Positions 4,464 through 64,000 of a stretch of 64,000 bases of DNA are shown piece by piece. The notes under the pieces were generated by a model, which saw only the letters and a list, made by a program, of their open reading frames with translations, ran no database searches and was not told where the DNA came from. Positions within the stretch are counted from its first letter, which is position 1; each line of letters opens with the position of its first letter. A program made the position numbers and the translations under genes. Origin of the DNA: a virus; IMG/VR virus record IMGVR_UViG_3300032291_003663, positions 27,060 to 91,059 of that record. The stretch is one strand, 5' to 3'.

Positions 4464-4467
4464 CATA

Positions 4468-4475: not shown

Positions 4476-4490
4476 TACAAAACACAAATC

Positions 4491-4700: not shown

Positions 4701-4723
4701 TTTATTATTCGTAAATTTATAGC

Positions 4724-5511: not shown

Positions 5512-5514
5512 GTT

Positions 5515-6132: not shown

Positions 6133-6135
6133 GTT

Positions 6136-8028: not shown

Positions 8029-8029
8029 T

Positions 8030-10145: not shown

Positions 10146-10150
10146 ATAAT

Positions 10151-11014
10151 ATGAAAGAATACATTTTACCGGGATATAATCCCAAACTGTTGATAAAAGA
10201 TAAAGAACGTATAGCAAAATTGTATAACGAATATGGTGTTGTTATATTCCCTGGGTTTTTAAAAAAGGATAAAAATTTTAAAAACTATATTAAAGATTTA
10301 AATTGGGTGTTTGAAGAAATTATTTCAAGACACAGTACTAAATCATTACCAAAAGATTTAGGAGATAAACTATCATTGTTAAATAAACTTAAAGCAATAG
10401 ATGGTAAGATAATTACAAATCTCGGTACTCAACCTAATAAATTTAATTCATTTAATATACTTAAATATTCTCCATGTGTAGATGCTATTTTAAAAGAAAT
10501 ATACGGAGAACAAGCAATAATAGCTACACCTCAAGCAGGTGATACCTTGCATTTCTTCCCATCCGGAGAAGAATTTTATAAATATAATTTACCTCCCCAC
10601 CAGGACTATCAATACTTGATGCAATCACCATCCCAAGCTACATTTTATATGGGGTTATCATCATATAAAGAAGATGTTGGAGGACTTAAAATATGGGAAA
10701 AATCACATAAATTAGGTATATTACCTACTACAACAAATGAATTTGGTTCATTTGAAGTTAAAGATAGTGAAATAATACTTAAAGAATTTGAAACTCTAGA
10801 TTATAAATGGGAAATGGGGGATCTTGGACTTTTTGATAGTTTACTATCTCATAGTTCTATCCCTAATAAAAGTAAAAAACACAGTAGAATTGTTCAGATA
10901 TTTAGATTTTCGGATCTAAACAATCAACAAGCTAAAGAATATGATTTTAAATCTGCTACATATAAACGAGACGGAATATTATTTGCTGATATACATTCAT
11001 CCTTATTAAGTTAA
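10151..11014 (+). CDS. PhyH-type Fe(II)/2-oxoglutarate dioxygenase
   Basis: 287 residues. The iron-binding facial triad is visible as H150-x-D152 (PPHQDYQYL) and H234 (LLSHSSIPN), with R247 as the likely 2-oxoglutarate ligand (HSRIVQIFRF). The motif GGLKIWEKSHKLG fits the phytanoyl-CoA dioxygenase family. In glycan clusters these enzymes hydroxylate or oxidise sugars or lipid parts. It follows the fusion enzyme by five bases. Confidence 0.75.
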   Translation: MKEYILPGYNPKLLIKDKERIAKLYNEYGVVIFPGFLKKDKNFKNYIKDLNWVFEEIISRHSTKSLPKDLGDKLSLLNKLKAIDGKIITNLGTQPNKFNSFNILKYSPCVDAILKEIYGEQAIIATPQAGDTLHFFPSGEEFYKYNLPPHQDYQYLMQSPSQATFYMGLSSYKEDVGGLKIWEKSHKLGILPTTTNEFGSFEVKDSEIILKEFETLDYKWEMGDLGLFDSLLSHSSIPNKSKKHSRIVQIFRFSDLNNQQAKEYDFKSATYKRDGILFADIHSSLLS

Positions 11015-11020
11015 AAACAT

Positions 11021-11704
11021 ATGACAATACACGTAATTTATAGACACACAGACAATTTAGAAGCTTGCGGAGTAGGAAAGAATAGACCAAAATGGTTTTC
11101 ATTTGATGGATGTTTAAATAATATTCTATCAACTATAGAAGATGCTGATTTTGTGAAATTTCATTTAATATATGATGGTGAGTTTAAAGGTGAAATTGAT
11201 AAAAGAATAGACCATGTAGAAATAATTAATGAAAAATCTGCTATGGGGGCTTGGGTTAAAGCCTGGGACTATGCTAAAAGTTTAGATTTAAAAGATGATG
11301 ATTTAATTTATCATCTTGAAAATGACTATATGCACGCTTATGGATGGCCCTATAAAATAATGGAATTATATGATTTATACAGTGAAGTAGATTACGTTAC
11401 ACTTTATGATCATCCCCATTTCTACCATCCTAATGATTACCCTAATTTATCAACTAATATACTACCCACTTATTCACATCATTGGATCACTCGCCCCAGT
11501 ACTACAGGAGCGTTTATAGTTAACAAAAGAATCTTATTTGAAGATTACGACACTTGGGTGGATGGGCCAGGAGATTATCATAAATTCATATCGTTAGGAA
11601 AAAATAAGAAAAGAAATATCGTATCACCTATTCCTAGTTTATCTACTCATTGTGAAACAGAATGGTTAGCAACAACGGTAGATTGGGAAAAATTATCTAA
11701 ATAA
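11021..11704 (+). CDS. GT-A-like glycosyltransferase
   Basis: 227 residues. HVIYRHTDN begins a nucleotide-binding fold. LIYHLENDYMHAYGW (about residues 93-107) places END where GT-A enzymes have DxD, and RPSTTGAFIVNKRIL is the acceptor-side motif. A C-terminal HCETEWLA segment is conserved in such short transferases. Family number uncertain. Confidence 0.6.
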   Translation: MTIHVIYRHTDNLEACGVGKNRPKWFSFDGCLNNILSTIEDADFVKFHLIYDGEFKGEIDKRIDHVEIINEKSAMGAWVKAWDYAKSLDLKDDDLIYHLENDYMHAYGWPYKIMELYDLYSEVDYVTLYDHPHFYHPNDYPNLSTNILPTYSHHWITRPSTTGAFIVNKRILFEDYDTWVDGPGDYHKFISLGKNKKRNIVSPIPSLSTHCETEWLATTVDWEKLSK

Positions 11705-11706
11705 AA

Positions 11707-12987
11707 ATGATAGAATTATCTAATATACAGGCATTAGCCGGGAACCATGTTCCAAAATATATCTACAATGATCATTTTGAACCCGGAAATACACCTGTGT
11801 ATTATTCTGGTCCATACTGGGATAGTAGAGAAATAGTAGCAGCAATGGATTCTTTCCTAAATGGCAAATGGATTACAGCGGGAGAAAAAGTACACAAATT
11901 TGAAAGTCAATTTGGAAAACGTTTCAAAACCAAACATTCACATATGGTGAATTCTGGATCATCTGCTAATCTAATTTTAATAGCAGCTCTTAAAAAACGC
12001 TTTAAGTGGGAAGATGAAGATGAAATTATTGTATCGCCTGTTGGATTTGCAACTACTGTATCTGTATTATATCAAAATCGACTAAAACCAGTATTTGTAG
12101 ATATTGAATGGGATACTTTAAACTTTGACATTAACCAAATTGAAGCTAAGATAACACCTAAAACTAAAGGGATATTCGTATCACCTGTATTAGGTAATCC
12201 TCCTGATATAGACAGGTTAGTTAAATTATGTATTAAATATGATATAAAACTAATAGGAGATAACTGTGATAGTTTAGGAAGCAAATGGGAGGGAAAATAT
12301 TTAAATGAATACTACGTAGCATATGCTAATTCTTTCTATCCTGCTCATCATATTAGTACAGGAGAAGGGGGAATGTGTTGTACAGACGATGATGAATTGA
12401 AAAAATTATTTGTTAGTTTATCATGGTGGGGAAGAGATTGTTATTGTGTTGGTTCTGCTAATTTATTACCTTGTGGAACATGTGGAAACAGATTTGATAA
12501 ATGGTTAGAAAATTACGACGGCGTTATTGATCACAAATACGTATTCAGTGAAATGGGTTATAATTTAAAACCTCTAGATTTACAAGGAGCTATTGGATTG
12601 GTTCAATTAGAAAAATTAGATGAAATTGAAACTAATAGAAAACGCTCTAAAGAAACTATCTCTAAAATATTTACAGACAATATCTCAGGGTTGAGAACAC
12701 CAAGTACATTAAGCAAGGCTGATCCTTGTTGGTTTGGTACTCCATTTATATGTGAAGAGGAAGGACTAAAACACAAATTAGTTGCTCATTTAGAAGCAAA
12801 TAAAATTCAAACGCGTAACTATTTCGCAGGAAATATTTTATTACATCCTGGATATTCATCATTAGATGATTATAAGAATTATCCGGAGGCAAATAAGGTA
12901 TTAGATAAGGTATTCTTTATAGGAGCAGCACCTCACTATACTCAAGATGTATTTAACTATATTGAAGATATAATAAAAAAATTCTAA
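11707..12987 (+). CDS. RfbH-like CDP-4-keto-6-deoxyglucose 3-dehydratase homologue
   Basis: 426 residues, full length for the DegT fold. The residue that is the PLP-binding lysine in aminotransferases is a histidine here: SFYPAHHISTGEGG, with H214 and H215. That is the hallmark of the E1/RfbH/ColD dehydratases. D185 in GDNCDS binds the PLP ring. Four cysteines, C245, C247, C256 and C259 (RDCYCVG and PCGTCG), match the region that holds the [2Fe-2S] cluster in E1. The expected reaction is C3 deoxygenation on the way to a 3,6-dideoxyhexose, with an electron-transfer partner (E3) that is not seen here. The one-base overlap (TAATG) couples it to the RmlD-like reductase. Confidence 0.8.
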   Translation: MIELSNIQALAGNHVPKYIYNDHFEPGNTPVYYSGPYWDSREIVAAMDSFLNGKWITAGEKVHKFESQFGKRFKTKHSHMVNSGSSANLILIAALKKRFKWEDEDEIIVSPVGFATTVSVLYQNRLKPVFVDIEWDTLNFDINQIEAKITPKTKGIFVSPVLGNPPDIDRLVKLCIKYDIKLIGDNCDSLGSKWEGKYLNEYYVAYANSFYPAHHISTGEGGMCCTDDDELKKLFVSLSWWGRDCYCVGSANLLPCGTCGNRFDKWLENYDGVIDHKYVFSEMGYNLKPLDLQGAIGLVQLEKLDEIETNRKRSKETISKIFTDNISGLRTPSTLSKADPCWFGTPFICEEEGLKHKLVAHLEANKIQTRNYFAGNILLHPGYSSLDDYKNYPEANKVLDKVFFIGAAPHYTQDVFNYIEDIIKKF

Positions 12988-13727
12988 TGAAAATACTAGT
13001 ATTAGGAGATGGAAAGTTAGGATCTGAAATAATAAAACAGACAAATTGGGAGTATATTTCAAGAAAAAAAGATGGATTTGACTTTACAAATGCTCGTGAT
13101 ATTACTAAAGCACTAATAGAAGACCATCATGGAACTATACTAGTAAAAAAATATGACGCAGTAATAAACTGCATGGCTAATACTGATACTTATTCTACTG
13201 AAAAAGAACTAATGTATAAAGTAAATTATGAAGCAGTTGCTAACTTATCTGATATATGTAATGCTTATAAGATTAAATTAGTTCATATTTCAACAGATTA
13301 TGTTTATGCTGGTTCTGTAAATAATGCTACTGAAGAAGATATGCCTGTACCTTCAAATAACTGGTACACATATTATAAATTATTAGCTGATGAATATATT
13401 GCAATAACTAATTCTAATTACTTAATTTGTCGATGCTCATTTAAGTCAAAACCCTTTGAATTTAAGTATGCTTGGTATAACCAAATAGGTAACTTTGATT
13501 ATGTTGATGTTATAACAGAATTAATTATTAAACTAGTTAAAGGAGATGCTAAAGGAATTTATAATGTAGGTACTGAAACTAAAACTATGCTTGATCTAGC
13601 CAAACAAACAAAACCAGAAACTCAACCATCACAAAGACCAGATCACGCACCTGCAAATATTTCTATAGATATTAGTAAATTAAAAAATTTCTTAAATGAA
13701 AACACTAGTAACAATACTAAACCATAA
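12987..13727 (+). CDS. RmlD-like NAD(P)-dependent sugar-nucleotide reductase
   Basis: 246 residues, an extended short-chain dehydrogenase. The nucleotide loop is MKILVLGDGKLGSEII. INCMANTDTY and ISTDYVYAG contain the catalytic Ser/Thr, and YTYYKLLADEY gives YxxxK. DTDP-4-dehydrorhamnose reductases have about 290 residues, so this one is slightly short. Following the RfbH-like dehydratase it could reduce the 4-keto group of a 3,6-dideoxyhexose intermediate. It shares 32 bases with the next glycosyltransferase. Confidence 0.72.
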   Translation: MKILVLGDGKLGSEIIKQTNWEYISRKKDGFDFTNARDITKALIEDHHGTILVKKYDAVINCMANTDTYSTEKELMYKVNYEAVANLSDICNAYKIKLVHISTDYVYAGSVNNATEEDMPVPSNNWYTYYKLLADEYIAITNSNYLICRCSFKSKPFEFKYAWYNQIGNFDYVDVITELIIKLVKGDAKGIYNVGTETKTMLDLAKQTKPETQPSQRPDHAPANISIDISKLKNFLNENTSNNTKP

Positions 13728-14430
13728 CCTACCAGAATATACTAATTTCTTATATAGGGAATTGAAACAACATCAAACAGACACACATGATATATTCGTG
13801 TTTGATAATGCTAGTTCACCTGAAGGACAACCTGAAATTGTACATTTATCAACAGATGAAAATTGCTATTTTGGAGGTGCTATGAACCTAGCATTTGAGT
13901 TTATATTAAATACAGATGAATATGATTCATTATTATTCTTAAGTAACGACGTTATTTTACATGGTAATAATTTTGTAGACACCTTGCGCAATGAAATGTT
14001 TGAGCATGATTATACCGTTTTATCTCCATCAGTACTGCAAATTAGAACGCAGCCTGATATGTGGAGACAAATGTTTAATTATGGAACTAAAAATGTAAGA
14101 CAAGTACCGTGGGTTGATTATATGTCACCTTTAATTCACAGACGTTTGATTGAAGAAATTCAACAATTTGACATGCGAATGATATACGGATGGGGACTAG
14201 ACATTTATTCAGGAATAGTATGTGAACAAAAAGGTTGGAAAATAGGAGTAGTTGATTATCTTGCAGCTGCACACTTAGTAGCAAAAACAACTAAAGAAGG
14301 CAAATCAGATATTACATCTGAACAATACTTTAGATTAGCTCAAAACGGAATGGATAGTTTCTTCTCTAGTAATGGATTAGATAGTGAAAAACACAGATTA
14401 ATGAATTTAGCTCAAACATATAAAGTATGA
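13696..14430 (+). CDS. GT2 family glycosyltransferase
   Basis: 244 residues. It opens LVTILNHNLPEYTNFLYREL and has FVFDNASSPEG, the donor-binding strand with DNAS, followed by FGGAMNLAF. LLFLSNDVIL replaces the usual DxD with SND. WGLDIYSGIVCEQKGW matches the (E/Q)D-type catalytic loop. It starts inside the RmlD-like gene (32-base overlap) and ends with a four-base overlap (ATGA). Confidence 0.75.
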   Translation: MKTLVTILNHNLPEYTNFLYRELKQHQTDTHDIFVFDNASSPEGQPEIVHLSTDENCYFGGAMNLAFEFILNTDEYDSLLFLSNDVILHGNNFVDTLRNEMFEHDYTVLSPSVLQIRTQPDMWRQMFNYGTKNVRQVPWVDYMSPLIHRRLIEEIQQFDMRMIYGWGLDIYSGIVCEQKGWKIGVVDYLAAAHLVAKTTKEGKSDITSEQYFRLAQNGMDSFFSSNGLDSEKHRLMNLAQTYKV

Positions 14431-15320
14431 TAACATTTTGCGTCTCAACATATAATAATTTAGAATATCTTAAATGGTGTATTAAATCAGTAAAAGAAAA
14501 TGCTCATTTTAATACTGCTCCGTTTATAGTACATGCTGAAAACTGTACTGATGGAACAAATGAATGGCTTGAAGAAGTTAAAGATCAATATAATTTAGAA
14601 ATATATATTGAACCAGAAGTAAAACCTGCTCGAGGAATAGGGGGTGGAATGAACTTCTGTGCAGATAAGATAAAAACAAAATACATTATATTTCTTCAAT
14701 CTGATTTCTATGTTGCTAAGAATTTTGACTTAGCTTTATTAAATGAAATAGAAAAATATGAGAAACATTATATTATATCATCCTGGAGAATTCAACCAAA
14801 TATATTCAATAATCCTCCAATGAAACCGGGTAATATATTTTTTCCTATAGATTATCTTGGAGCATATTGGAATGATTTTCAAGATAAATACTTTATTGAA
14901 TTTGCAGAAGAATTCAGTGAATTAAATGATATACAAATTAGAAGAGGAGAAGGAGCAGGTGGATTTATAATTAAAAAAGAAGATTGGGATTACATTGGTG
15001 GAAATGATTCATTATTTGCTCCTACATCTTGGGAGGATATGGATTTATTTATTCGAATGCAAAATGAAGGATTTGAATTTATTCAAACAACAAAATCTGT
15101 AATTTGGCATTTTGCTGGACGAGGTTCGCATCGCTTAGAAGAAAATGAAGGACAATCATCTAATAGACAAAAAGAAACAGAACATATAAATGCAGGTAAA
15201 TTTTATCATAAATGGGGACAATTACCTCAAATAGATGAAAATGAATTTGTAAAACCAATACTATCAACCAAAAATAGAATGACATATGATATCACTAATA
15301 ATACCAGCTACAACATCTAA
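14427..15320 (+). CDS. GT2 family glycosyltransferase
   Basis: 297 residues. TFCVSTYNNLEYLKWCIKSV begins the GT-A fold, HAENCTDGTNEWL is the nucleoside-binding strand, and IIFLQSDFYV is the DxD equivalent. GGFIIKKEDWDYIGG and SWEDMDLFIRM give the catalytic-base loop. It is coupled at both ends, with a 35-base overlap into the next gene. Confidence 0.78.
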   Translation: MITFCVSTYNNLEYLKWCIKSVKENAHFNTAPFIVHAENCTDGTNEWLEEVKDQYNLEIYIEPEVKPARGIGGGMNFCADKIKTKYIIFLQSDFYVAKNFDLALLNEIEKYEKHYIISSWRIQPNIFNNPPMKPGNIFFPIDYLGAYWNDFQDKYFIEFAEEFSELNDIQIRRGEGAGGFIIKKEDWDYIGGNDSLFAPTSWEDMDLFIRMQNEGFEFIQTTKSVIWHFAGRGSHRLEENEGQSSNRQKETEHINAGKFYHKWGQLPQIDENEFVKPILSTKNRMTYDITNNTSYNI

Positions 15321-16218
15321 TCAACACTATACAGACTTTGCAATACAACAAATTCGAGAATTATATCCAAATGAAAACGAAGTTGAGATTGTAGTTGAAG
15401 TAAATGATAATGTAACATTAGGAATTAACTATAATAATGCCGTAGCTAAAGCTAAAGGTGAGATTGTGGTATTGATGCATAACGATATGGTACCACACCC
15501 TGGGTTTGTAGAAGCAATTTTAAAGCATATAGAGCGCAAATTAGTACTCGTTTATCATCGAATAGAACCGCCTATCTACACAGACACATATTTAGGCAAG
15601 TCAATATCTGACTGTGGTAAAGATATTGAAACATACGATAAAGATAAATTTTTCTCGTATAATAGTGATGACATGATATTAGAAGGTGGTTCACAATTAT
15701 TCTTTGCTGTTTATAAAGATGATTACTTAGATATAGATGGATATACATTTAAAAAGTTTTGTGAAGATGATGATGTACATTTAAGATATAAAACAGCAGG
15801 ATATCAATGTAAAGTTGCTACAGGCGCTATGGTTTATCACTTTGTAAGTAAAACATCAAGAGTTGATAACTATCAAGAAACTGAAATGCTATCTAATTTA
15901 GCGTTTATTAGAAAATGGGGCTTTAGAGTATCTAAATACAACAAGGTATATAAGAAAGCATATACACTTAAAGGTACTGCTCCTCATGATTTAATTAATG
16001 CTCTTAATCTATGGTTCACATCTACCCTTGCAGAGGCAAATGTGGTTGCCGAAATAAATGTTAGTACCTTTACTCAACAAGATTACGCGTTTTTAACGCA
16101 ATTAAATGACATAATTGCTGAGAGTGGTGAAGTGGGCACATTCGAATTAGGGAACGTTAAAATCAACGTTAAATCGCTAGAATCATTTGAAAAAGATTTA
16201 ATATTTATACAAAAATAA
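15286..16218 (+). CDS. GT2-like glycosyltransferase
   Basis: 310 residues, the last transferase of the cassette. SLIIPATTSNQHYTDFAI opens the fold, LGINYNNAVAKAKGEIVVLMHNDMV carries the HND form of the metal motif, and FCEDDDVHLRYKTAGY holds the catalytic acidic loop. The C-terminal 90 residues are not glycosyltransferase-like and may bind an acceptor. The start lies 35 bases inside the upstream gene. Confidence 0.72.
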   Translation: MISLIIPATTSNQHYTDFAIQQIRELYPNENEVEIVVEVNDNVTLGINYNNAVAKAKGEIVVLMHNDMVPHPGFVEAILKHIERKLVLVYHRIEPPIYTDTYLGKSISDCGKDIETYDKDKFFSYNSDDMILEGGSQLFFAVYKDDYLDIDGYTFKKFCEDDDVHLRYKTAGYQCKVATGAMVYHFVSKTSRVDNYQETEMLSNLAFIRKWGFRVSKYNKVYKKAYTLKGTAPHDLINALNLWFTSTLAEANVVAEINVSTFTQQDYAFLTQLNDIIAESGEVGTFELGNVKINVKSLESFEKDLIFIQK

Positions 16219-16222
16219 CCAC

Positions 16223-16594
16223 ATGGAAGCTATTAGCATATTAGAAGAATTAAAATTATTTCTGGAAGCCGAAGAAGAAGTAGATGCTGAAGCTGATCTA
16301 CAGATAGACGCTCCTACATCGCCTCGTCTAAAATTAGACGTTAATCCAAATCCAACTAAAAAAGGAGTAAAGGTACAATTTGTATTACCTAAAGGGTATA
16401 GCACAAATCAAAAAGAAGAATTAACTCAAAAGTTAAAAACTAAACTGAATGCTGGTTTAGCTCCACATATGTTAAGTGTAGATGTTGATTTAGATGTACC
16501 TTATGAAAATGTTATTGGATTTTTAATTAGACTAAGTAACTTTAAAATGCTTATAAAATCTATACTAGAAGAAGGAAGTAAAAAACCAGCTTAA
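16223..16594 (+). CDS. Hypothetical protein, acidic N-terminus
   Basis: 123 residues. An acidic helix (EELKLFLEAEEEVDAEADL) is followed by a compact alpha/beta part with LKLDVNPNPTKKGVKVQFVLP. It starts four bases after the last glycosyltransferase. Not recognised; a late or virion-assembly role is possible from its neighbours. Confidence 0.5.
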   Translation: MEAISILEELKLFLEAEEEVDAEADLQIDAPTSPRLKLDVNPNPTKKGVKVQFVLPKGYSTNQKEELTQKLKTKLNAGLAPHMLSVDVDLDVPYENVIGFLIRLSNFKMLIKSILEEGSKKPA

Positions 16595-16604
16595 AATATA
16601 AAAC

Positions 16605-16994
16605 ATGGCTAAAAGAATTATCCCTAATCTATATATTGCCATTCAAGAAGGAACTGACTTTAACATAATCCAAGATAATGCTCAAATACAAGAAGTATTA
16701 TTCAATAGTGTAGTGGATGGAATTAAAGACGCAGCTAAAACCAACAAACAAGAAGCAACAATAATAGAATTAAACTCATCAGGTAACTATATTTCTATCA
16801 ATTATGAAAATTGGAAATTATCTTTAGAAAAAGCGCAAATATATTTTGCCGGTTTAGAACAATATGAAGTGTGTGCAGATATTCAAAAAATAATAGAATC
16901 AATTAATAGTTATGAACCCAAAAGATCATATAGAAAAACTACAAGAACAAATAAACCAAATAATAGGAACTCAGAGTGTCTTAAAACGTCGTAA
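16605..16994 (+). CDS. Hypothetical protein, paralogue of the 18680-19075 gene
   Basis: 129 residues. The central part (EATIIELNSSGNYISINYEN, then LEQYEVCADIQKIIESI) aligns by eye with the protein at 18680-19075 (VFAEIIVPASKEIICLNIEE, EEEYELCAELVKAKEKII). The basic C-terminal tail overlaps the next gene by 83 bases in another frame. Function unknown. Confidence 0.5.
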   Translation: MAKRIIPNLYIAIQEGTDFNIIQDNAQIQEVLFNSVVDGIKDAAKTNKQEATIIELNSSGNYISINYENWKLSLEKAQIYFAGLEQYEVCADIQKIIESINSYEPKRSYRKTTRTNKPNNRNSECLKTS

Positions 16995-23899: not shown

Positions 23900-24619
23900 A
23901 TGAAAACAATCGTACTTGGCGATACCCATGGTCGTTCGAATTGGAAATTAGCAATACATCAAGACAATCCTGATAGAGTTATCTTTATAGGTGATTATTT
24001 TGATTCATTCCATATCAATACAACTGACCAAATCAATAATTTCCTTGATATTATTGAATATAAAAAAACATCAGGTAAAGAAGTTATACTACTAATAGGT
24101 AATCACGACCACCATTACTATCCCGAAGTAGGAAATACAGGTACATCAGGATACCAGCATGTAGGAAATTTTCAAATAGTTCCTACCATTGATGCTAATA
24201 GAGAACATTTACAGGTAGCTTATCAAATGAATGATTTTTTGTTTACACACGCCGGTGTAAGTAGTGAATTTATGGATAATGTTTATGGTAACAATGGATG
24301 GAAATTAGAAACATTGGTTGATGACTTAAATGAATTATTTAAGTATAAACCTAAAACATTTGACTTTAATGGTATTGATGGTTATGGAGACGATACTTGG
24401 CAGACTCCATTTTGGATTAGACCTAAATCACTAATGCGTGTGAATAAAAACACATTACGTAAGCAAATTATTCAAGTAGTAGGACATACATCCCAAAAAC
24501 AAATTGATCGTAAAGGTACAGCTACAGGTGGTAAGTATTATTTTATTGATACAATGGATACAAGTGGAGAATACTTGGTTATTCAAGATAACCAACTTAC
24601 CTTCAATTCAGTAAAATAA
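23900..24619 (+). CDS. Metallophosphoesterase, Ser/Thr-phosphatase-like
   Basis: 239 residues. The motifs are LGDTHGR (D8, H10), FIGDYFDS, LIGNHDHHYY, FTHAGVS and VVGHTSQKQ, a complete dinuclear-metal site of the PPP type. It differs enough from the enzyme at 22757 to suggest a different substrate. Protein dephosphorylation or removal of a nucleotide signal are both possible. Confidence 0.85.
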   Translation: MKTIVLGDTHGRSNWKLAIHQDNPDRVIFIGDYFDSFHINTTDQINNFLDIIEYKKTSGKEVILLIGNHDHHYYPEVGNTGTSGYQHVGNFQIVPTIDANREHLQVAYQMNDFLFTHAGVSSEFMDNVYGNNGWKLETLVDDLNELFKYKPKTFDFNGIDGYGDDTWQTPFWIRPKSLMRVNKNTLRKQIIQVVGHTSQKQIDRKGTATGGKYYFIDTMDTSGEYLVIQDNQLTFNSVK

Positions 24620-24624
24620 ATAAC

Positions 24625-24840
24625 ATGACAGTTAAAGAATTAATCGAACAACTACAACAACTCGATTCCGAATTGCATGTGTTTGTAGATGGGTATGAGG
24701 GGGGATATGATGACATAGCAATAAGTGAAGTTAAAGATATAGCATTAAACGTTCATAAAGAATGGTGGTATGGTCAACATGACAATGCTAATGATGATAA
24801 GTTTATTGATGCTAAAATTGTAAAAGGTATTGTGTTATAA
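24625..24840 (+). CDS. Small acidic protein of the VKELIEQLQQLD family
   Basis: 71 residues. TVKELIEQLQQLDSELHVFV followed by a Gly/Asp-rich segment is a pattern found in many phages; the gene at 36544 has the same start (KVKELMEQLSTFDPETEVI). Function unknown. Confidence 0.55.
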   Translation: MTVKELIEQLQQLDSELHVFVDGYEGGYDDIAISEVKDIALNVHKEWWYGQHDNANDDKFIDAKIVKGIVL

Positions 24841-24847
24841 ATAAGCA

Positions 24848-25462
24848 ATGATAAGAAAATTAAAATATACATTACAAAGTCTTCAATGGATTAAAGCACT
24901 ATGGAGTCCATTTAAACCATTCACTGTTAAAGGGTATATAGGCAAAACGCAAATCGGTATTCCATATTTCCTACCCAGAAAATGGGTTAAAGCAACCCCA
25001 GAATTACGAACAAAAGCAGTATTAGATAAAATTAAAAATGAAGAAAATTACAATAAATTAAATCCAAATTCAGCTCGTAAAATAAAATCATTTGATGAAT
25101 TGTATGAGGAATATAAAAACTATACATTTCCTATACCACTTAAAGTAGGATTTAGTTATTGTGGTTTAGGTTGGAAAACAAAATGGACATCAACTGATTT
25201 TAGATATGAGTGGGGTCCTGTATTTTCATTTGTATTCTTTGGATATCAAATAGCATTAATGGTTGGTCATAGGGATGCTAGTCATTATTGGGAGGCCTGG
25301 TTATATTATGAATATGCCACAGATAAAACTAAATCAAAACGTAAGCGAGTAAGGCAATGTAGAAAAAGATTTCCACAAACATGGACAACACACAGGCATG
25401 ATGGAGAGCCAAAAACCGTAGATTATTATACTAAAATACTTAAATTAAAATATCTAAAATGA
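24848..25462 (+). CDS. Hypothetical aromatic-rich protein
   Basis: 204 residues, many Trp and Tyr. FVFFGYQIALMV and DASHYWEAWLYYEYATDKTK resemble the gene at 41960 (WFGFRA..QWEQWLWVHMYYDGDVDK), so the two may be distant paralogues. It is coupled by a four-base overlap to the next gene. Unknown function. Confidence 0.5.
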   Translation: MIRKLKYTLQSLQWIKALWSPFKPFTVKGYIGKTQIGIPYFLPRKWVKATPELRTKAVLDKIKNEENYNKLNPNSARKIKSFDELYEEYKNYTFPIPLKVGFSYCGLGWKTKWTSTDFRYEWGPVFSFVFFGYQIALMVGHRDASHYWEAWLYYEYATDKTKSKRKRVRQCRKRFPQTWTTHRHDGEPKTVDYYTKILKLKYLK

Positions 25463-25767
25463 AACGACAGGATAAAAATACAGAGATCTTAAAAACACTA
25501 ATTGATAAGATGTTCGAAATATCCGGTCATTCTCTTAAATTTGAAGATGTTGAGGGTAGAACTGATAATTGGTTTCAACAATATACAATGACTGAAGCTC
25601 AAAATAAGGAGTGGCGAGATTGGGGTACTAAATTTATAAATAAGAAACGTCGTTTTGGTGTAAAATTAGCTTCACGTGAAATGGCTTTTTTAGATTTATA
25701 TTGTGGATTAAAAATATCAGATAGTAGATTTGCAACTAATGAAGAAGAAAAAAGAACAGCCGATTGA
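25459..25767 (+). CDS. Hypothetical protein
   Basis: 102 residues. Helical with the segment TMTEAQNKEWRDWGTKFINK, typical of short phage proteins of unknown function; basic middle and acidic end. Confidence 0.5.
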   Translation: MKRQDKNTEILKTLIDKMFEISGHSLKFEDVEGRTDNWFQQYTMTEAQNKEWRDWGTKFINKKRRFGVKLASREMAFLDLYCGLKISDSRFATNEEEKRTAD

Positions 25768-25954
25768 ACGACAAGAATTTGTTGTATTTAGTGAATATGG
25801 TTATTTTTCAGGATTAGCTTATGGAGGGACACCTCAATGGTCTATGAATCAAAAGGATGCTAAACCACTTAACCACATGAATAAATTTTATACTTTACGA
25901 AGTATATCTCATACAGAACTAATGTTTGAAATGCTTGGAAACTCAAAAAAATAA
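25739..25954 (+). CDS. Hypothetical protein
   Basis: 71 residues from ATG 25739; a TTG start nine bases upstream is less likely. The basic start MKKKKEQPIERQ is followed by an aromatic beta-rich body (EYGYFSGLAYGGTPQWS). It overlaps the previous gene by 29 bases. Confidence 0.45.
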   Translation: MKKKKEQPIERQEFVVFSEYGYFSGLAYGGTPQWSMNQKDAKPLNHMNKFYTLRSISHTELMFEMLGNSKK

Positions 25955-25969
25955 TTTTACATTTATTGT

Positions 25970-26158
25970 ATGAGAACAGAAGCCGAACGTTTATTACATT
26001 ACAGAGCAGCATTTCTTGAAAAAGTGAAGAAGTGGAGATGGGAAGAGCCTAATGAAGAAAGTTATAATAGACGAGGTCGTAAACCAAAATCTAGTATACG
26101 AATTGAAGCACGTCCTAGAACTAAAGGAGAAGAACTAGCATTTATAAATCAAAAATAA
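25970..26158 (+). CDS. Small basic protein with GRKPK motif
   Basis: 62 residues with an AT-hook-like RRGRKPKSS near residue 34-42. It may bind AT-rich DNA. The other AT-hook protein lies at 35252. Confidence 0.45.
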   Translation: MRTEAERLLHYRAAFLEKVKKWRWEEPNEESYNRRGRKPKSSIRIEARPRTKGEELAFINQK

Positions 26159-50145: not shown

Positions 50146-50561
50146 TGGCTTATATAAGAAGTAATAGGGTTGATCCTAGAGATTTACAAAAAAATACAGC
50201 AATAGGTGTTAAACTACCGTTTAATGCCCCTGGTGTATTTTACAGTACCTTCTCTACTTCAGATCAATTAAAATATAACCTTATTAACTTATTATTAACA
50301 TCCAAAGGAGAAAGAATTGATAATCCAGAATTTGGTACTCTTTTAAGAGCTCAATTATTTAATCCTATGACTGCTGCCTCGTTTAGTGATATTGAAGATA
50401 GTATAAAGGATAGTGTTCAAATGTATATACCTGAAATTCTAATAAATAGTGTGGAATTTATACAAGAGGGAGAATATGGAAGTAATGTACTAGTAGTAAA
50501 AATAATATATCAAATATTAATATCCGGGCAAACCGATACAATAACAGTTAACTTCGAATAA
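50145..50561 (+). CDS. gp25: Baseplate wedge protein gp25
   Basis: 138 residues. The gp25/GPW fold is clear: LINLLLTSKGERIDNPEFGT, then LRAQLFNPMTAASFSDIEDSI. The domain is related to the T4 gp25 and P2 gpW proteins that start sheath polymerisation at the baseplate. It overlaps gp6 by one base. Confidence 0.88.
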   Translation: MAYIRSNRVDPRDLQKNTAIGVKLPFNAPGVFYSTFSTSDQLKYNLINLLLTSKGERIDNPEFGTLLRAQLFNPMTAASFSDIEDSIKDSVQMYIPEILINSVEFIQEGEYGSNVLVVKIIYQILISGQTDTITVNFE

Positions 50562-52372
50562 TGGCAGACCAAAAGAATATATCATACTTAAATAAAAATT
50601 TTACTCAATTCAAGACATCACTAATTGAATTTGCTAAAAATTATTTCCCCAATACCTATACAGATTTTTCAGAAGCATCTCCAGGTACAATGTTTATTGA
50701 AATGGCATCGTATGTGGGTGATATATTATCATTTTATACAGATACTCAAATTCAAGAAAACTTTGTTTTAACAGCTGTTGAAAAACAGAATTTGTTAAAT
50801 ATGGCTTATTCTTTAGGCTACAGACCTAAATCATCATATGCGGCTGTTACTACAGTAGATTTTTATCAACGTGTCCCTATTTCAGGTGGTAGTCCTAATT
50901 TAGACTATACTTTAATAATTCCCGAAAATACTCCCTTACAATCTATTAGTACAGGTATTAATTTTTTAACAATTGATAGAGTAGATTTTTCTGATACTGG
51001 TTCTGTTGATATTAGCTTATATGATGCCAATAATTACTTATTTAAAAAATCTACTAGAGCTGTATCTGCTGAGATTGTAAGTACAAATTTTACTTTTGGT
51101 GCTCCTCAAAAATTTACTTCTGTTGATATAAATGAGCCTAATTTTTTACAAATACTTCAAGTAACAGGAAGTGATAGTAGTGTATGGTATGAAGTACCAT
51201 ATCTAGCTCAGTCGAATATTATAAATAAAACTGTTAATACAGGTGCTAATTATGATAAGGTTCCTTATATTTTAAATTTATTACAAACTCCAAATCGTTA
51301 TGTTACTAGAATAAAAACAGACGATATTGTAGAAATGCAATTTGGAGCAGGAATGTATGTTAATACTCCTGATGATGTTATTATCCCCAATCCAGATACT
51401 ATTCAACTTGGGTTAGTACCATCCGTAGATACTTCTGATTTAGTTAATAATTACAATCAAGCTGCTGTATTTTATACCAAACAATATGGTACTGTGCCTG
51501 CTAATATTTCTCTAAATGTTCAATATACTGTTGGAGGTGGAATACAAGCTAATCTACCAGCCGGAGATATAGCACGAATAACATCTGTTGCTAACATAAC
51601 TGCTGTAAATTCTATTTATACAAATGCTGCTTTATTATCTTTAGTTTGTACAAATCCTGTTCCTTCAACGGGTGGTAGAAGTGGAGATACAGTTGAAGAA
51701 ATTCGTTTAAATACTTTAAATGCATTCTCAGCACAGTTAAGAGCTGTAACTAAGGATGACTATATGACCCGTGCTTTAAGCATGCCTTCAGAATTTGGTA
51801 CTATTGCTAAAGTTTATGTAGAACAAGCATCAACATTGTCCGTACAGTCAGGAAATGATCCATTAATTGATAATAATCCTCTTGCAATATCCATGTATGT
51901 GTTAGCGTATAATGATAATAAACAATTAGAAAATGCTACTACAGAACTAAAAACTAATCTTAAAGAATATCTTGAACCATTCAGAATGGTTACCGATGCC
52001 GTAACAATAAAAAATGGTTTTTATATCAACCTAGGTTTAAATTTTGATATAACTGTAATTCCAGGATTAAGTAATAAACAAATTTTAACTGATTGTATTT
52101 TATCTTTACAAAGCTTTTTTGATATAGATAAATGGCAAATCAATCAACCTATTATAATATCGGACATTTATGCCGTCTTAATGAAGGTAAAAGGGGTACA
52201 ATCGGTTGTTAAGCTTGAATTTACAAACATATCAGGGGGTAATTATTCGCCCTATAGCTATGATGTACAAGGAGCAACTAGAACGGGTATAATATACCCA
52301 TCAATGGACCCGTCTATATTTGAAATAAGATACCCAGACACAGATATTCAAGGTAGGGTTGTAACTTTTTAA
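50561..52372 (+). CDS. gp6: Baseplate wedge protein gp6
   Basis: 603 residues, close to T4 gp6 (660). Conserved regions are FTQFKTSLIEFAKNYFPNTY, MASYVGDILSFYTDTQIQEN, LLNMAYSLGYRPKS, the GGRSGDTVEEIRLNTLNAFS block (about 369-388) and KDDYMTRALSMP. This is the J-like/gp6 dimer that links wedges. It follows gp25 as in T4. Confidence 0.88.
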   Translation: MADQKNISYLNKNFTQFKTSLIEFAKNYFPNTYTDFSEASPGTMFIEMASYVGDILSFYTDTQIQENFVLTAVEKQNLLNMAYSLGYRPKSSYAAVTTVDFYQRVPISGGSPNLDYTLIIPENTPLQSISTGINFLTIDRVDFSDTGSVDISLYDANNYLFKKSTRAVSAEIVSTNFTFGAPQKFTSVDINEPNFLQILQVTGSDSSVWYEVPYLAQSNIINKTVNTGANYDKVPYILNLLQTPNRYVTRIKTDDIVEMQFGAGMYVNTPDDVIIPNPDTIQLGLVPSVDTSDLVNNYNQAAVFYTKQYGTVPANISLNVQYTVGGGIQANLPAGDIARITSVANITAVNSIYTNAALLSLVCTNPVPSTGGRSGDTVEEIRLNTLNAFSAQLRAVTKDDYMTRALSMPSEFGTIAKVYVEQASTLSVQSGNDPLIDNNPLAISMYVLAYNDNKQLENATTELKTNLKEYLEPFRMVTDAVTIKNGFYINLGLNFDITVIPGLSNKQILTDCILSLQSFFDIDKWQINQPIIISDIYAVLMKVKGVQSVVKLEFTNISGGNYSPYSYDVQGATRTGIIYPSMDPSIFEIRYPDTDIQGRVVTF

Positions 52373-58491: not shown

Positions 58492-59154
58492 ATGGCTATT
58501 TTAAATAACAATACTGTAACGATTGATGCGATTTTAACAGCTAAGGGCAGAGAATTGCTAGCTAGAAATGATGGCTCGTTTCAAATCACTCAGTTTTCTT
58601 TAGCAGATGATGAGGTAGATTATACCTTATACAATCCCCAACACCCATCCGGATCAGCATTTTATGGTCAAGCCATTGAGGCGATGCCCGTAATTGAAGC
58701 ATTTCCTGATGATACACAGATAATGATTTATAAGTTAACTACTCTACCAAGAGGCACAGCTAAATTACCTGTAATTAGTGTTGGTTATAATAGTATTAAT
58801 TTAAAACAGGGTTCTACATTAACCATTACTCCACAAACATTAAATTATCTTGGTGCTACTAGTACATTTGAAGCCAATGGTTACGCAGTAACTATTGCTG
58901 ATGTTAGATTCTTATCTACTTTCTCTTCAACGGGGGTAGCAGGTGCTGAAGTTACAGCTACTGGGGTTACTCAAACTCTTGGATCTTCTGTGAGTCAAAC
59001 TTTAATTGGTACTTCATTTACATTAACTGGTACTACTATTAATACATTGTTCGGTTCTAGTTTAAGCCAAATCACTACTACTCTTACTGTATTAGGTAGA
59101 GACAGTGGTGCACGAATTACTATACCAGTAACAATAACAAAATCAAATTCTTAA
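58492..59154 (+). CDS. Tail/fibre structural protein
   Basis: 220 residues. NTVTIDAILTAKGRELLARN and ITQFSLADDEVDYTLYN are a conserved start seen in structural proteins of T4-like phages. The rest is Ser/Thr-rich beta-structure (TLTVLGRDSGARITIPVTIT). Probably a fibre-base or baseplate protein. Confidence 0.65.
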   Translation: MAILNNNTVTIDAILTAKGRELLARNDGSFQITQFSLADDEVDYTLYNPQHPSGSAFYGQAIEAMPVIEAFPDDTQIMIYKLTTLPRGTAKLPVISVGYNSINLKQGSTLTITPQTLNYLGATSTFEANGYAVTIADVRFLSTFSSTGVAGAEVTATGVTQTLGSSVSQTLIGTSFTLTGTTINTLFGSSLSQITTTLTVLGRDSGARITIPVTITKSNS

Positions 59155-59165
59155 TAATATAATAT

Positions 59166-60194
59166 ATGTCATTTGTAAGATACAACCCAGAAGATTCTGT
59201 AGTAAGTACTGAAACCGTAGTAAGACCAATGTGGAGTGGTGACACAAATGTGTTGGCTACTTATTATACTTCTAGTGCTATTACTAGTTCATTTTATTTA
59301 AACGTATATGCTGAATATCCTGGTGCTCTAACTTCTACCTCAGCTTCTGTTCAGTTTGCTACTCAATATGGTAACATGTATGGTAGTGGTGCTGCTTATA
59401 TTAGCCCATCAGTAACTAACCAATTGCCAGATAGTTCATCGATTACTAATTCTAGAGTTGTTTACGGGCAATATAGAACATTGTTGTTAGGAACAGAAAG
59501 CGGAAGCTTTCAATTTGGAGACGATACGCCACAAGGTATTTATATAATCAACATAGCTAGAAATAGATATAAAGAACATACCCAACCTGGTTCAATGACA
59601 TTAAAGTTAGAAAATGGTGCATATGAAGTTGTTTTAACAGATAATAGCCAAATAACATCAACAACTAATTATACAACAGCTGGTACTTTATACTATACTT
59701 TAATTAGTGGTAGTGCAGGTGTTCCTTATGGCAACGCGACAGGAATGTCTAATTCAACATACGGGATTTTATTCCCAGATGACGATATTATTATATTAAA
59801 TCCAACCGCATTGTCTAGATCGATTGTTAATGGAGGTATTTTTTTCGACCCAACAGTTAATACTCCAGGAACAGATAATAATTTAGATTTTCAATTTTAT
59901 ACATTGATATCTTCTAGTGCTTATTTTGGATTACAATCGGCTGAGAATGTTTCTTCTCATTATTTCTTTACAAGAATAAAAAATCAGGATTTTAATTACA
60001 CAACAAATCCCTCTATTATAGATAATAATGGTAATTTACTTTATTCTACATTAATTAACAATCCTCAAACATTTATAACAACTGTTGGATTGTATAATAA
60101 TAATAATGAATTATTAGCGGTTGCCAAATTGAGTAGGCCTTTAGTAAAAGATTTTACCAAAGAAGCCTTAATTAAAGTAAAATTAGACTATTAA
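59166..60194 (+). CDS. Structural protein, beta-rich
   Basis: 342 residues, Ser/Thr/Tyr/Asn-rich with SMTLKLENGAYEVVLTDNSQ. A large share of beta-strands and short loops suggests a fibre or baseplate component. Not recognised further. Confidence 0.55.
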   Translation: MSFVRYNPEDSVVSTETVVRPMWSGDTNVLATYYTSSAITSSFYLNVYAEYPGALTSTSASVQFATQYGNMYGSGAAYISPSVTNQLPDSSSITNSRVVYGQYRTLLLGTESGSFQFGDDTPQGIYIINIARNRYKEHTQPGSMTLKLENGAYEVVLTDNSQITSTTNYTTAGTLYYTLISGSAGVPYGNATGMSNSTYGILFPDDDIIILNPTALSRSIVNGGIFFDPTVNTPGTDNNLDFQFYTLISSSAYFGLQSAENVSSHYFFTRIKNQDFNYTTNPSIIDNNGNLLYSTLINNPQTFITTVGLYNNNNELLAVAKLSRPLVKDFTKEALIKVKLDY

Positions 60195-60215: not shown

Positions 60216-61214
60216 ATGGGATCCTTCAAAAAGTTAAAATCTTCAGATGTTATAACAATACCTGTTATAGCTAATAAACAGTGGAATTTTAACTATTGTC
60301 CTCTACCTCTAAGTGATCCCTATATTGATTTCTATAATGGTACTAACTTATCAGGAACTTTTAATCCTACTACGGACCCTATAACTAATGGGCAATATGA
60401 TAGATTAATATATGATTCTATAAATCAATTATTCTATCATCAATATTCCGGCAGTATATCTACTGCCTCTTTGGCGTCTTCTTTATATTATGCTACAGCT
60501 ACGGGACTAAGGCCAACTGCTTCTTATTTTAATTTTAATGATGATCCTGCTTTTATAAATTATTTCCCAACAGGGATAAATGAATCTATAAAAGTTCTTT
60601 CCATATCTACAAACTTATACGGCCAAAGAATTTTACCATATAGTTTTCAACTGACTTCATCTACATATCTTTTTACAGATGATGGAAAAGGTAATGTTTA
60701 TGATAGTGATACTACCCATGTGGGGAATGTATTTTATCCTGAAGGTATTTTTGTACTAACAAATCAAGATTATCAAGGAATATTCCCATCAACTCCTATT
60801 GCTTATGATGATGTTATATTCATTACTAGAAGTGATTATGGCAATCCTGTTACTTTATCTATTTCTCCTTTAGTAAATGATGACCTAAGAGGAAATACCC
60901 TTGTAAATCAATCAATTAAACTTTCAGGACCAAATATTAGTAATTTTAGTACAGGGTCTAATAATACGGTATCAATGTCATTTAGTGGATTAGGAACCGG
61001 AGTGTATCAAACATATTATACATTTAATGTAACGGGTTCTTATTGTGGGATGCTAACAAGCAATACAGCAAGCATAGTTATTACCGTATTAGACCCGGAT
61101 TGTGAATTTGAAATGAGTTTAGCATCGTTTTCAAAGATAATACTAGCTTCTCCATTTATGAGTGGTAGTCAAGTTTATGTAAGCTTTACAGATTTTACAG
61201 GATCTTTGGGATAA
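60216..61214 (+). CDS. Structural protein, beta-rich
   Basis: 332 residues. FKKLKSSDVITIPVIANKQW at the start and ISPLVNDDLRGNTLVNQ near the end. An immunoglobulin-like C-terminal part is plausible. It is the last complete gene before the fibre with repeats. Confidence 0.52.
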   Translation: MGSFKKLKSSDVITIPVIANKQWNFNYCPLPLSDPYIDFYNGTNLSGTFNPTTDPITNGQYDRLIYDSINQLFYHQYSGSISTASLASSLYYATATGLRPTASYFNFNDDPAFINYFPTGINESIKVLSISTNLYGQRILPYSFQLTSSTYLFTDDGKGNVYDSDTTHVGNVFYPEGIFVLTNQDYQGIFPSTPIAYDDVIFITRSDYGNPVTLSISPLVNDDLRGNTLVNQSIKLSGPNISNFSTGSNNTVSMSFSGLGTGVYQTYYTFNVTGSYCGMLTSNTASIVITVLDPDCEFEMSLASFSKIILASPFMSGSQVYVSFTDFTGSLG

Positions 61215-61239: not shown

Positions 61240-64000
61240 ATGGCCTATACTAGTGCTTCATTTGATGTTACTGCTTCAGTATTATACGTAGATCAAGCGT
61301 ATATATATAATTCTATTGACGTCATAATAAACACATACAATATAAGTGGTAGTGCTTCATTTTCTCCTGTCCCTTCAGCAACATATAATCCATTTATATA
61401 TGCTGTAAATCCGGTAGAAAAAAATAGTACTATTATAGTATTTACTCCTCCTCCAACACCTACTACTACATCAACTCCTTCTATTACACCAACAAGGACT
61501 ATTACTCCAACAAAAACCATAACACCGACTATAACACCTAGTCCAACGATTACAGCAACACCTACTATTACTCCAAGTAGAACTATTACACCGACTATAA
61601 CAGCAACACCTACTATTACTCCAACTGTAACTATTACACCAACTATAACAACAACACCTACTATTACTCCAAGTAGAACTATTACCCCCACGGTAACTAT
61701 TACACCAACTATCACGACAACACCAACTATTACGCCAACAAGAACTATTACACCAACTTTAACTATAACACCTACTGTTACTATCACACCTACTGTTACT
61801 GAAACTCCTACTATTACTCCTAGTCCTAGTATTACACCAACATTAACGATAACACCAACGGTTACTGTAACTCCAAGTATAACTGCTAGTCCTAGTATTA
61901 CACCTAGTTTAACAATAACACCAACTATTACTGCTACTCCAACAATAACAGCAACACCGACTATTACTGCTTCTCCTTCTATTACGCCAACGAGAACTAT
62001 AACTCCTACTGCAACTATAACTCCAACTGTTACTATTACACCTAGTTTAACAATAACACCAACTATTACTGCTACTCCAACAATAACCGCGTCGCCGAGT
62101 ATAACACCAACAAGAACAATTACTCCGACTGTAACTGAGACTCCGACTGTAACACCAACAGCAACTATAACTCCTACAACAACTATAACATCAACTATTA
62201 CTGCTACTCCTTCAATTACACCAACACTTACAATTACTCCGAGTGTAACTGTTACTCCAAGTATAACTGCTAGTCCTAGTATTACACCAACATTAACAAT
62301 AACACCGACTTTAACTATAACTCCAACTGTAACATCAACAGCATCTATTACACCTACTGTTACAATTACACCAACTATAACAGGAACTCCTTCGATCACA
62401 CCAACATTAACGATAACACCAAGTGTAACAATAACACCGAGTATAACAGCATCTCCAACTATAACTCCAACTATTACAGTTACACCAACTATAACAGGAA
62501 CCCCTAGTATAACACCTACTTTAACTGTTACTCCAACAATAACATCAACACCAACTATTACAGCATCACCTTCTATTACACCGACAAGAACTATTACTCC
62601 TACTGTAACTATAACACCAACTGTAACGCCAACCATTACTGCAACTCCTTCTATAACACCAACTTTAACTGTTACACCTACTATAACAGCATCTCCAACT
62701 ATAACTCCTACTGTTACAGTTACACCAACTATAACTAAAACACCAACAATTACATCAACGGCTTCGATTACACCAACGTTAACAATTACACCTACTATTA
62801 CTTCAACACCAACTATTACACCTACTTTAACGATAACACCAAGTGTAACAATTACACCTACTATTACTCCAACTCTTACTATTACTCCTAGTGTAACTGT
62901 TACTCCGAGTATAACACCAACAAGAACAATAACTCCAAGTTTAACTGTTACTCCAACAATAACAACAACAAGAACAATTACACCAACATCAACAATTACT
63001 CCAACATCAACAATTACTCCAAGTATTACACCAACATTAACGATAACACCATCACCAACAATAACATCAACTCCAACAATAACAGCAACACCAACTATAA
63101 CACCATCAATTACTGCTTCTCCTTCTATAACACCAACAAGAACTATATCAGCAACACAACCCTATTATCCAGGTGCTGATTATATAGTATTCCAATACAC
63201 CTTAGCTCCAGGAGCGGGGGTTGATTTAGATACACTAACAACTCTAGTAGATCCTGTCACCGCCGGTCCTATGGGTTATTGTGTTGATGGAAGTTTAGCA
63301 TCTGGGGCTTGGGGTGGTCCTTATTTATATTGGGGAGGAGATAATACAACATCCGGAGGAACAGAGACTAATTATGTCGATCTTATTGCTTTAAAAGCTG
63401 CTTATCCTAGTATGACTCAAGCTGAGTTAACTTGTAGAGCAAACTGGTTTAGTACTAGAGGAAATGGAGATGTTTTTATAACTATGTATGCATACCAAGG
63501 TGGTACCATGGTTAGTAATGGTAATTTTGGATTTACAAATACAGGAGGTACATTAATAGGGACACGTGAATTCCCAACAGTCAATGTAACAGCAGTTAAT
63601 AATACATGTACGACTACGGATTGTGTAGGAACATATGTTTATAATATTTCAAGTGGTTTATTTACAAAAATTGATTGTGTAGAACCAAGTCCAACACCTA
63701 CTGTAACACCTACACTTACTATAACTCCAAGTATAACACCAACAAGGACTATAACACCAAGTATAACAGCAACACCGTCAATAACACCAACAGTAACAAG
63801 GACTATAACACCAAGTATAACAGCAACACCGTCAATAACACCAACAGCAACAAGAACACAAACACCTAGTATAACAGCAACAAGAACAATAACACCGTCT
63901 ATAACATTAACACCGTCAATCACAGCAACAAGAACAGTAACACCAACAAGAACAATAACACCGAGTATAACAGCAACATCTAGTATAACACCAACACCTA
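61240..64000 (+). CDS. Giant Thr-Pro-repeat tail fibre (open at the right edge)
   Basis: The frame runs from an ATG behind an A-rich leader to the edge without a stop (920 codons visible). Residues 1-65 are a head domain (AYTSASFDVTASVLYVDQAY). Residues about 66-640 are almost only Thr, Pro, Ile, Ser, Val and Ala in the register [IV]-T-[PA]-[TS]. A globular domain with cysteines and aromatics follows (YIVFQYTLAPGAGVDLDTLT ... NYVDLIALKAAYPSMTQAEL), and a second repeat tract starts near residue 817. It is probably a fibre or adhesin whose repeats may be glycosylated, which fits the phage's glycan genes. The complementary frame also stays open, but that is a consequence of the repeats. Confidence 0.75.
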   Translation, partial: MAYTSASFDVTASVLYVDQAYIYNSIDVIINTYNISGSASFSPVPSATYNPFIYAVNPVEKNSTIIVFTPPPTPTTTSTPSITPTRTITPTKTITPTITPSPTITATPTITPSRTITPTITATPTITPTVTITPTITTTPTITPSRTITPTVTITPTITTTPTITPTRTITPTLTITPTVTITPTVTETPTITPSPSITPTLTITPTVTVTPSITASPSITPSLTITPTITATPTITATPTITASPSITPTRTITPTATITPTVTITPSLTITPTITATPTITASPSITPTRTITPTVTETPTVTPTATITPTTTITSTITATPSITPTLTITPSVTVTPSITASPSITPTLTITPTLTITPTVTSTASITPTVTITPTITGTPSITPTLTITPSVTITPSITASPTITPTITVTPTITGTPSITPTLTVTPTITSTPTITASPSITPTRTITPTVTITPTVTPTITATPSITPTLTVTPTITASPTITPTVTVTPTITKTPTITSTASITPTLTITPTITSTPTITPTLTITPSVTITPTITPTLTITPSVTVTPSITPTRTITPSLTVTPTITTTRTITPTSTITPTSTITPSITPTLTITPSPTITSTPTITATPTITPSITASPSITPTRTISATQPYYPGADYIVFQYTLAPGAGVDLDTLTTLVDPVTAGPMGYCVDGSLASGAWGGPYLYWGGDNTTSGGTETNYVDLIALKAAYPSMTQAELTCRANWFSTRGNGDVFITMYAYQGGTMVSNGNFGFTNTGGTLIGTREFPTVNVTAVNNTCTTTDCVGTYVYNISSGLFTKIDCVEPSPTPTVTPTLTITPSITPTRTITPSITATPSITPTVTRTITPSITATPSITPTATRTQTPSITATRTITPSITLTPSITATRTVTPTRTITPSITATSSITPTP
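61440..63140 (+). repeat. Thr-Pro codon repeat tract 1
   Basis: About 1.7 kb of degenerate repeats with the codons for Ile/Val-Thr-Pro-Thr. Some blocks are near-identical at the DNA level, for example CCTAGTTTAACAATAACACC at 61903 and 62041 (138 bases apart), while most copies differ only at third positions. Confidence 0.85.
63741..63848 (+). repeat. 54-base direct repeat in tract 2
   Basis: Two adjacent 54-base units (63741-63794 and 63795-63848) differ at one base, so they arose recently. The second repeat tract reaches the window edge. Confidence 0.8.

Follow-up and report, generated by a model that had tools for sequence, protein, structure and literature searches.

A long open reading frame at the end of a phage contig, in which threonine or serine occupies every second residue over hundreds of positions, raises the question of what such a protein does and which enzyme would act on it. 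Here we report a computational analysis of this locus in the IMG/VR virus record IMGVR_UViG_3300032291_003663. The window analyzed is the last 64 kb (64,000 nucleotides) of this linear, 91,059-base record and starts at contig position 27060; its end coincides with the end of the record, inside the fibre gene (61240-63999), which according to the ORF list and its translation encodes 920 amino acids and is open at its 3' end. All features given below in window coordinates lie on the plus strand. We consider it probable that the phage encodes a mucin-type O-glycosylation system, in which the repetitive stalk of the predicted fibre is the acceptor, a glycosyltransferase of family GT60 is the initiator, and a cassette of sugar genes provides possible extenders.

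The fibre protein begins with an N-terminal domain (residues 1-69; 61240-61446) that shows 64-71% identity to five relatives. It continues into tract 1 (residues 70-639; 61447-63156), where 284 of 285 odd positions are Thr or Ser out of a total of 298 such residues (hypergeometric log10 p -144). The intervening X positions are mostly P, I, or V, with A, L, R, S, and a small number of other residues making up the rest. The 570 residues of this tract include 248 Thr, 105 Pro, 90 Ile, and 50 Ser, and Thr, Ser, and Pro together make up 403 of them (71%), which is the composition of a long repetitive Thr/Ser/Pro-rich domain of the mucin (PTS) type. The initial annotation had described a Thr-Pro fibre tract of more than 500 residues; the length holds, but the sequence rule is an alternating (T/S)-X rather than Thr-Pro, Pro accounts for 18% of tract 1, and a 176-residue globular domain (residues 640-815; 63157-63684) splits the alternation. 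Behind this domain, translation and composition reveal tract 2 (residues 816-920, 105 amino acids; 63685-63999), which is cut by the contig end and has Thr or Ser at all odd positions. The 99% T/S purity of tracts in relatives and at GT60 loci follows partly from the construction of the scan, which does not apply to the window figure. In an AF2 model of the last 58 tract residues (three sequences, monomer only), the chain is a coil with pLDDT 33-43 and no strands, as expected for a bare mucin chain.

The interrupting domain matches phrog_24956, and its AF2 model suggests a beta fold that weakly resembles TerD (VIA-align against 3ibz: Z 8.9, rmsd 3.3, 135 aligned residues, model pLDDT 60.5); no TerD Pfam match to it was found at E values up to 10. 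It contains a GGDN motif, and a calcium-binding module is possible. Homologues of the domain occur in the viral loci L004/L348 and L347 and in ORF372 of the isolated phage XacN1, where the homologue likewise lies between tracts.

The units of the tract carry the traces of both selection and duplication. In paired tract sub-windows, pS is 0.22-0.28 and pN is 0.06-0.08, with pN/pS of 0.28-0.32 (0.20-0.29 at the T/S register), a ratio that is rough since the pairs were chosen greedily by nucleotide identity. These values bear out the earlier proposal that the protein pattern is under selection and that the units differ at synonymous sites. Codon choice in the tract is similar to that of other phage genes for Thr and Ile, and somewhat different for Pro, Ser, and Ala. 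A repeat search identified an exact 54-nt repeat with copies at 61896-61949 and 62034-62087 (spacing 138 nt) and an exact 53-nt repeat with copies at 63741-63793 and 63795-63847 (spacing 54 nt), both longer than any repeat in 300 synonymous-codon shuffles that kept the protein sequence (maxima 37 and 36 nt, respectively). The tract thus combines older units that have diverged at third bases with others that were copied recently. Fresh duplications had been reported as near-identical blocks of 54 and 138 bases; the former is confirmed, while 138 is the spacing between copies and not the length of a block.

The genomic context points to a role of the protein in the phage tail. The window encodes a baseplate wedge protein (50561-52372; phrog_6) with 42.7% identity to that of Flavobacterium phage immuto, which assigns the fibre gene to the tail module. 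Further downstream, two genes encoding proteins of 220 and 342 amino acids (58492-60194; 68% and 43% identity) stand in the same order as the genes preceding the immuto tail fibre. The tail module as a whole is syntenic with that of immuto (34-68% identity), up to the position of the immuto tail fibre and spikes. Directly upstream of the fibre gene lies the gene for a 332-aa protein (60216-61214) with 24 relatives in viral contigs. In 21 of these relatives, alternating T/S tracts of 20 or more residues either come next or are fused to the protein, and the other three contigs stop earlier. In at least six relatives (L015, L017, L018, L020, L023, and L027), the 332-aa domain is continuous with the tract within a single protein, as it also is in L060 by its N-terminus. 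The 332-aa protein thus probably anchors the fibre in the virion. By both the immuto synteny and the fused relatives, the gene occupies the tail-fibre position, and its product would thus be located in the virion.

Several features of the relatives deserve mention. Their tracts extend up to about 1,300-1,700 residues (L008, L012, L016). Loci L347 (2047-16183) and L348 (3006-19018) carry 11 and 12 tracts with globular segments between them in a beads-on-string layout, and the phage of L348 has one open ORF of more than 4,200 amino acids. In both L012 and L016, a TAA stop occurs at the same site of the conserved N-terminal domain (DPS*, about locus 9213-9216) and is followed by a Met restart, consistent with either a split gene or recoding. 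The 7,620-base contig L126 stops short of the fibre, but its baseplate protein has 100% identity to that of the window, so a near-identical strain exists.

A candidate enzyme for this acceptor is encoded in the same virus, in the 27 kb of the record that precede the window, about 75 kb from the fibre gene. Two adjacent genes at contig positions 10690-13268 match PF11397 ('Glycosyltransferase (GlcNAc)'), which we take to correspond to CAZy family GT60, an assignment supported by the DxH motif. The first of them matches with E 2e-68 and 231.9 bits against a curated cut-off of 21, and the second scores 163.3 bits; the glycosyltransferase family phrog_24687 was matched as well. The D-S-H triplet is invariant in all ten aligned GT60 sequences, and each of the 104 viral GT60 ORFs contains D-x-H. 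When PDB sequences were searched with a profile built from the phage GT60 alignment, none matched, so that family membership rests on Pfam, the motif, and the fold. The fold was assessed on the GT60 protein of locus L047, which is 78% identical to the enzyme of the virus; its AF2 model (39 sequences, pLDDT 92.7) has a GT-A fold near GT27, and its best 29 VIA rows (PDB) are all ppGalNAc-T structures (Z 22.2-18.9), followed by a next match at 16.6. In the two GT60 proteins the highest 19-residue Kyte-Doolittle means are 0.3 and 0.6; this lack of an evident hydrophobic helix is consistent with a location in the cytoplasm. GT60 includes the Trypanosoma cruzi UDP-GlcNAc:polypeptide alpha-GlcNAc-transferase, which initiates mucin glycosylation on Thr, as well as Gnt1, whose acceptor is hydroxyproline on Skp1 (PMC6939170, PMC9472816, PMC3769586), and glycosylation of polypeptide Ser/Thr and the replacement of DxD by DxH are common to GT27 and GT60 (PMC7185993). 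By homology and the structural model, the phage enzymes are predicted to transfer HexNAc to Thr/Ser of the tract.

The virus has further sugar genes. A cassette at 1726-16218 of the window comprises, by Pfam, two GT1-type and three GT2-type transferases, DegT aminotransferases, WbqC, methyl- and acetyltransferases, and an RmlD-like reductase. In each of four contigs longer than 90 kb that were searched (G000, which is this virus, G004, G008, and G011), we found two GT60 genes, at least five GT2 matches with the PF11397 genes counted in, and two GT1 matches. Among 26 IMG/VR records, PF11397 is present in six, namely in all five longer than 70 kb and in one of 21 shorter ones, which are fragments. 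A carbamoyltransferase gene is located near GT60 in this virus (contig 15276-16907), in XacN1 (AP018399.1, ORF333), and, by sequence resemblance, in the bacterium Jiulongibacter (L315:11262-12833), and its product may cap the glycan.

To evaluate the association between the enzyme and the tracts, we analyzed the 80 viral GT60 loci that are most similar to the enzyme of the virus; they are the best 80 of at least 588, ranked by similarity rather than drawn at random, and include the near-duplicates L078/L079, L110/L112, and L050/L052. A tract of at least 40 residues is present in the fetched flanks of 35 of these best 80 loci, lying upstream of GT60 on the same strand in 28 and on the other strand in six. 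In 19 of them, no more than 300 bp separate the end of the tract gene from GT60 downstream on the same strand, with gaps mostly of 38-86 bp. Control loci contain no tract of this length, neither around thymidylate synthase (0/80, Fisher p 5e-13) nor around GroEL (0/25). The mean locus length was 11.5 kb for thymidylate synthase, 14.4 kb for GroEL, and 17.8 kb for GT60; when only loci of at least 12 kb are counted, tracts occur in 33 of 72 GT60 loci (from the same best 80 of at least 588), 0 of 35 thymidylate synthase loci, and 0 of 14 GroEL loci. Raising the threshold from 20 to 100 residues reduces the number of tract-bearing loci among the best 80 from 37 to 20, and the controls remain at none. 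Clustering of these loci at 70% identity gave 24 GT60 clusters, of which 9 contain an adjacent tract and 15 a tract in any position. A search from the fibre side revealed two divergent phages in which the tract gene is followed on the same strand by GT60, at distances of 54 and 47 bp.

In a control with other letter classes, AG, DE, KR, and NQ alternate in none of these best 80 loci, and the I/V/L alternation seen in 21 is not independent, since these are the X residues of the same tracts. The GroEL-like chaperonin recognized by sequence in the virus (contig 24442-26073) served as the control query. Two other controls were rejected. A GT2 gene of the window retrieved a single locus, which is too few, and loci of the baseplate gene, 25 of 80 of which have tracts, are not neutral since the tract gene lies downstream of the baseplate gene in this phage family.

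Isolated phages allowed us to examine the prediction that GT60 phages carry tracts. A tblastn search with the GT60 protein of the virus identified 3 of 50,697 phage records, XacN1 and the Stenotrophomonas phages CM1 and RAS14; the latter two were picked for GT60 alone, and their tracts are near-copies. Scanning of the whole genomes, in pieces, revealed 11, 9, and 8 tracts of at least 40 residues in XacN1, CM1, and RAS14, respectively, in agreement with the prediction, and no tract in six large phages without GT60 (immuto, Mel-JY01, Atu_ph07, PA5oct, BRock, and LR756508). One more record, LR756511, was searched for GT60 alone, outside the tract scan. XacN1 (AP018399.1; ORF369-372 and others) and RAS14 (OP752703.1) encode sets of tract proteins, several of which adjoin tail genes. 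The XacN1 virion contains at least two glycoproteins, tentatively credited by its authors to the phage transferases ORF328 and ORF334, and the accessible text of that report leaves the glycoproteins unnamed and draws no link between glycosylation and tracts (PMC5852040). ORF334 is the GT60 protein and adjoins a carbamoyltransferase. Tail fibres were not seen in the electron microscopy of XacN1 as described in the accessible text (PMC5852040), which gives no help to the fibre reading for that phage. A tblastn search of phage records with the tract as the only query returned nothing, an uninformative outcome given the low-complexity masking. In the open-access literature, we found no description of phages with threonine-rich repeats, Thr-Pro stalks, or mucin-like fibres, or of PF11397 in phages.

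The pairing of the enzyme with a tract extends to bacteria. Among 36 GT60 loci from bacterial genomes, three (from Saprospiraceae, a Bacteroidia MAG, and Jiulongibacter) have a gene for an exported-looking, alternating T/S protein divergently adjoining GT60 (L312:8525-9670, L315:8968-9756, and L313:2684-3412). The bacterial tract proteins have what we take, by eye, to be an Arg-Arg Tat-like start, and one of them an end like a type IX sorting domain; they are possible mucin-type surface stalks. In Jiulongibacter, the gene after the pair is similar in sequence to the carbamoyltransferase gene located near GT60 in the virus. A fourth candidate, L323, was left uncounted, as it has a plain TP repeat on the other strand, at a distance of about 5 kb. 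A full-length GT60 was found in one of 395 Bacteroidota genomes drawn, the centre genome itself, and the other ten matches were short and weak; GT60 is thus rare in Bacteroidota, and the bacterial side rests on three of 36 loci. We hold at even chances the wider proposal in which the phage has a mucin-type system, with the Thr/Ser-every-second stalk and the paired GT60 HexNAc-transferase producing a virion bottlebrush, the same pair serves a surface-exported stalk in some Bacteroidota, the module may be shared or exchanged between phage and host, and the coat could mimic surface glycans of the host.

Four other explanations were weighed. The tract might be an unglycosylated flexible linker, and GT60 might act on another virion protein, on DNA, or on a host surface glycan, so that the neighborhood would reflect a common tail and host-interaction module. 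The predicted coil suits this explanation, as do the indirect nature of the case for tract glycosylation and the 45 of the best 80 of at least 588 GT60 loci that have no tract of at least 40 residues in their fetched flanks, some of them through short flanks or a tract elsewhere. However, the close same-strand spacing of GT60 and the tract gene, the constancy of the T/S register while X varies, the action of GT60 and its fold neighbors on polypeptide Thr/Ser, and the presence of tracts in all three GT60-bearing isolated phages argue against a mere linker, which we regard as unlikely.

The glycan might instead be attached to hydroxyproline, as on Skp1 by the GT60 member Gnt1 (PMC6939170). The tracts are rich in Pro, and a PhyH-type oxygenase identified by Pfam at 10151-11014 of the window leaves room for such a modification, but the invariant tract positions are Thr/Ser and not Pro. 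The 2OG-Fe(II) oxygenase family PF13640, which has prolyl 4-hydroxylases among its members, is absent from all 15 IMG/VR contigs searched and from XacN1; its only occurrence is in Mel-JY01, a phage with neither GT60 nor tracts. Its absence from the tract-bearing records makes Thr/Ser the likelier acceptor; we regard attachment to hydroxyproline as very improbable. We find it equally hard to credit an ordered beta fibre, a solenoid or intertwined strands with alternate Thr/Ser on one face and glycosylation incidental: the strict two-residue period and the frequent I or V at X would suit it, but Pro at about 37% of X positions, unit spacings that differ between 2, 4, and 6 residues, and the strandless AF2 model argue against it. 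Finally, an assembly artefact of a short repeat, a worry of the initial annotation that is justified insofar as the contig, like those of four of 24 relatives (L005, L006, L011, and L025), ends within a tract, is extremely unlikely, since third bases differ throughout, which sets the units apart from copies of a single short read, a 1,613-aa ORF of a relative has the same sequence in three assemblies, and tracts occur in independent phages, including isolates.

We therefore return to the mucin-type O-glycosylation system as the preferred explanation. The initial annotation had proposed a mucin-like stalk as a possible target of the phage glycosyltransferases, and the presence of GT60 in the same virus, its adjacency to tracts elsewhere, the tract-free controls, the ppGalNAc-T fold match, and the isolated phages favor this proposal; the key enzyme, though, is encoded outside the window and is not among the window transferases. 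Its distance of about 75 kb from the fibre gene in this virus speaks against the proposal, as do the GT60 loci with tract-free flanks. In the proposed mechanism, the protein encoded at 61240-63999 would be a tail-fibre stalk working like a mucin, presenting Thr/Ser at each second residue of a chain that is extended and otherwise disordered. The phage GT60, present in two tandem copies, would act in the host cytoplasm and add the first HexNAc, probably alpha-GlcNAc, to many Thr/Ser of the tract, and other sugar enzymes of the phage may lengthen or cap the glycans. The product would be a stiff, hydrated, protease-resistant bottlebrush that keeps the globular end modules off the virion. The tract would grow and shrink by in-register duplication and loss, with selection retaining the T/S spacing only.

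Mucins are commonly regarded as an invention of animals and protists. If correct, the proposed system would represent a new class of virion surface and would account for some 'glycosyltransferase' genes found in large aquatic phages, Thr/Ser at each second residue would serve as a sequence rule for finding acceptors, and a compact cytoplasmic route to synthetic mucins would be available. The target of the phage glycosyltransferases becomes a directly testable question in already isolated phages.

Comparison with known systems provides insights into what is shared and what is distinct. One parallel is that of the T. cruzi mucins and their alpha-GlcNAc-transferase, with a Thr-rich acceptor, the same enzyme family (GT60, PF11397), and the DxH of GT27 and GT60; in contrast, the phage system would be cytoplasmic, with no Golgi, has strict two-residue acceptor spacing and an adjacent gene pair, and its GT60 activity is predicted. 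Animal mucin-type O-glycosylation is similar in that ppGalNAc-T (GT27) is the best structural match of the phage GT60 model and the acceptor is rich in Thr, Ser, and Pro (71%), but the phage GT60 is about 13% identical to ppGalNAc-T, and its sugar is assigned by inference. Glycans on mycobacteriophage virion proteins are said to act as a shield (Freeman 2023, cited in PMC12619734); as described in the accessible part of that source, they are located at the C-termini of capsid and tail tube proteins, with no dedicated stalk (PMC12619734). Flavobacterium phage immuto shares the syntenic tail module, with 34-68% identity in the common genes, but has ordinary tail fibre and spike genes at this position, no GT60, and no tract in its genome. 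XacN1 resembles the virus studied here in combining GT60 (ORF334) and tracts within one isolated phage, whose virion, according to the accessible text, has at least two glycoproteins (PMC5852040).
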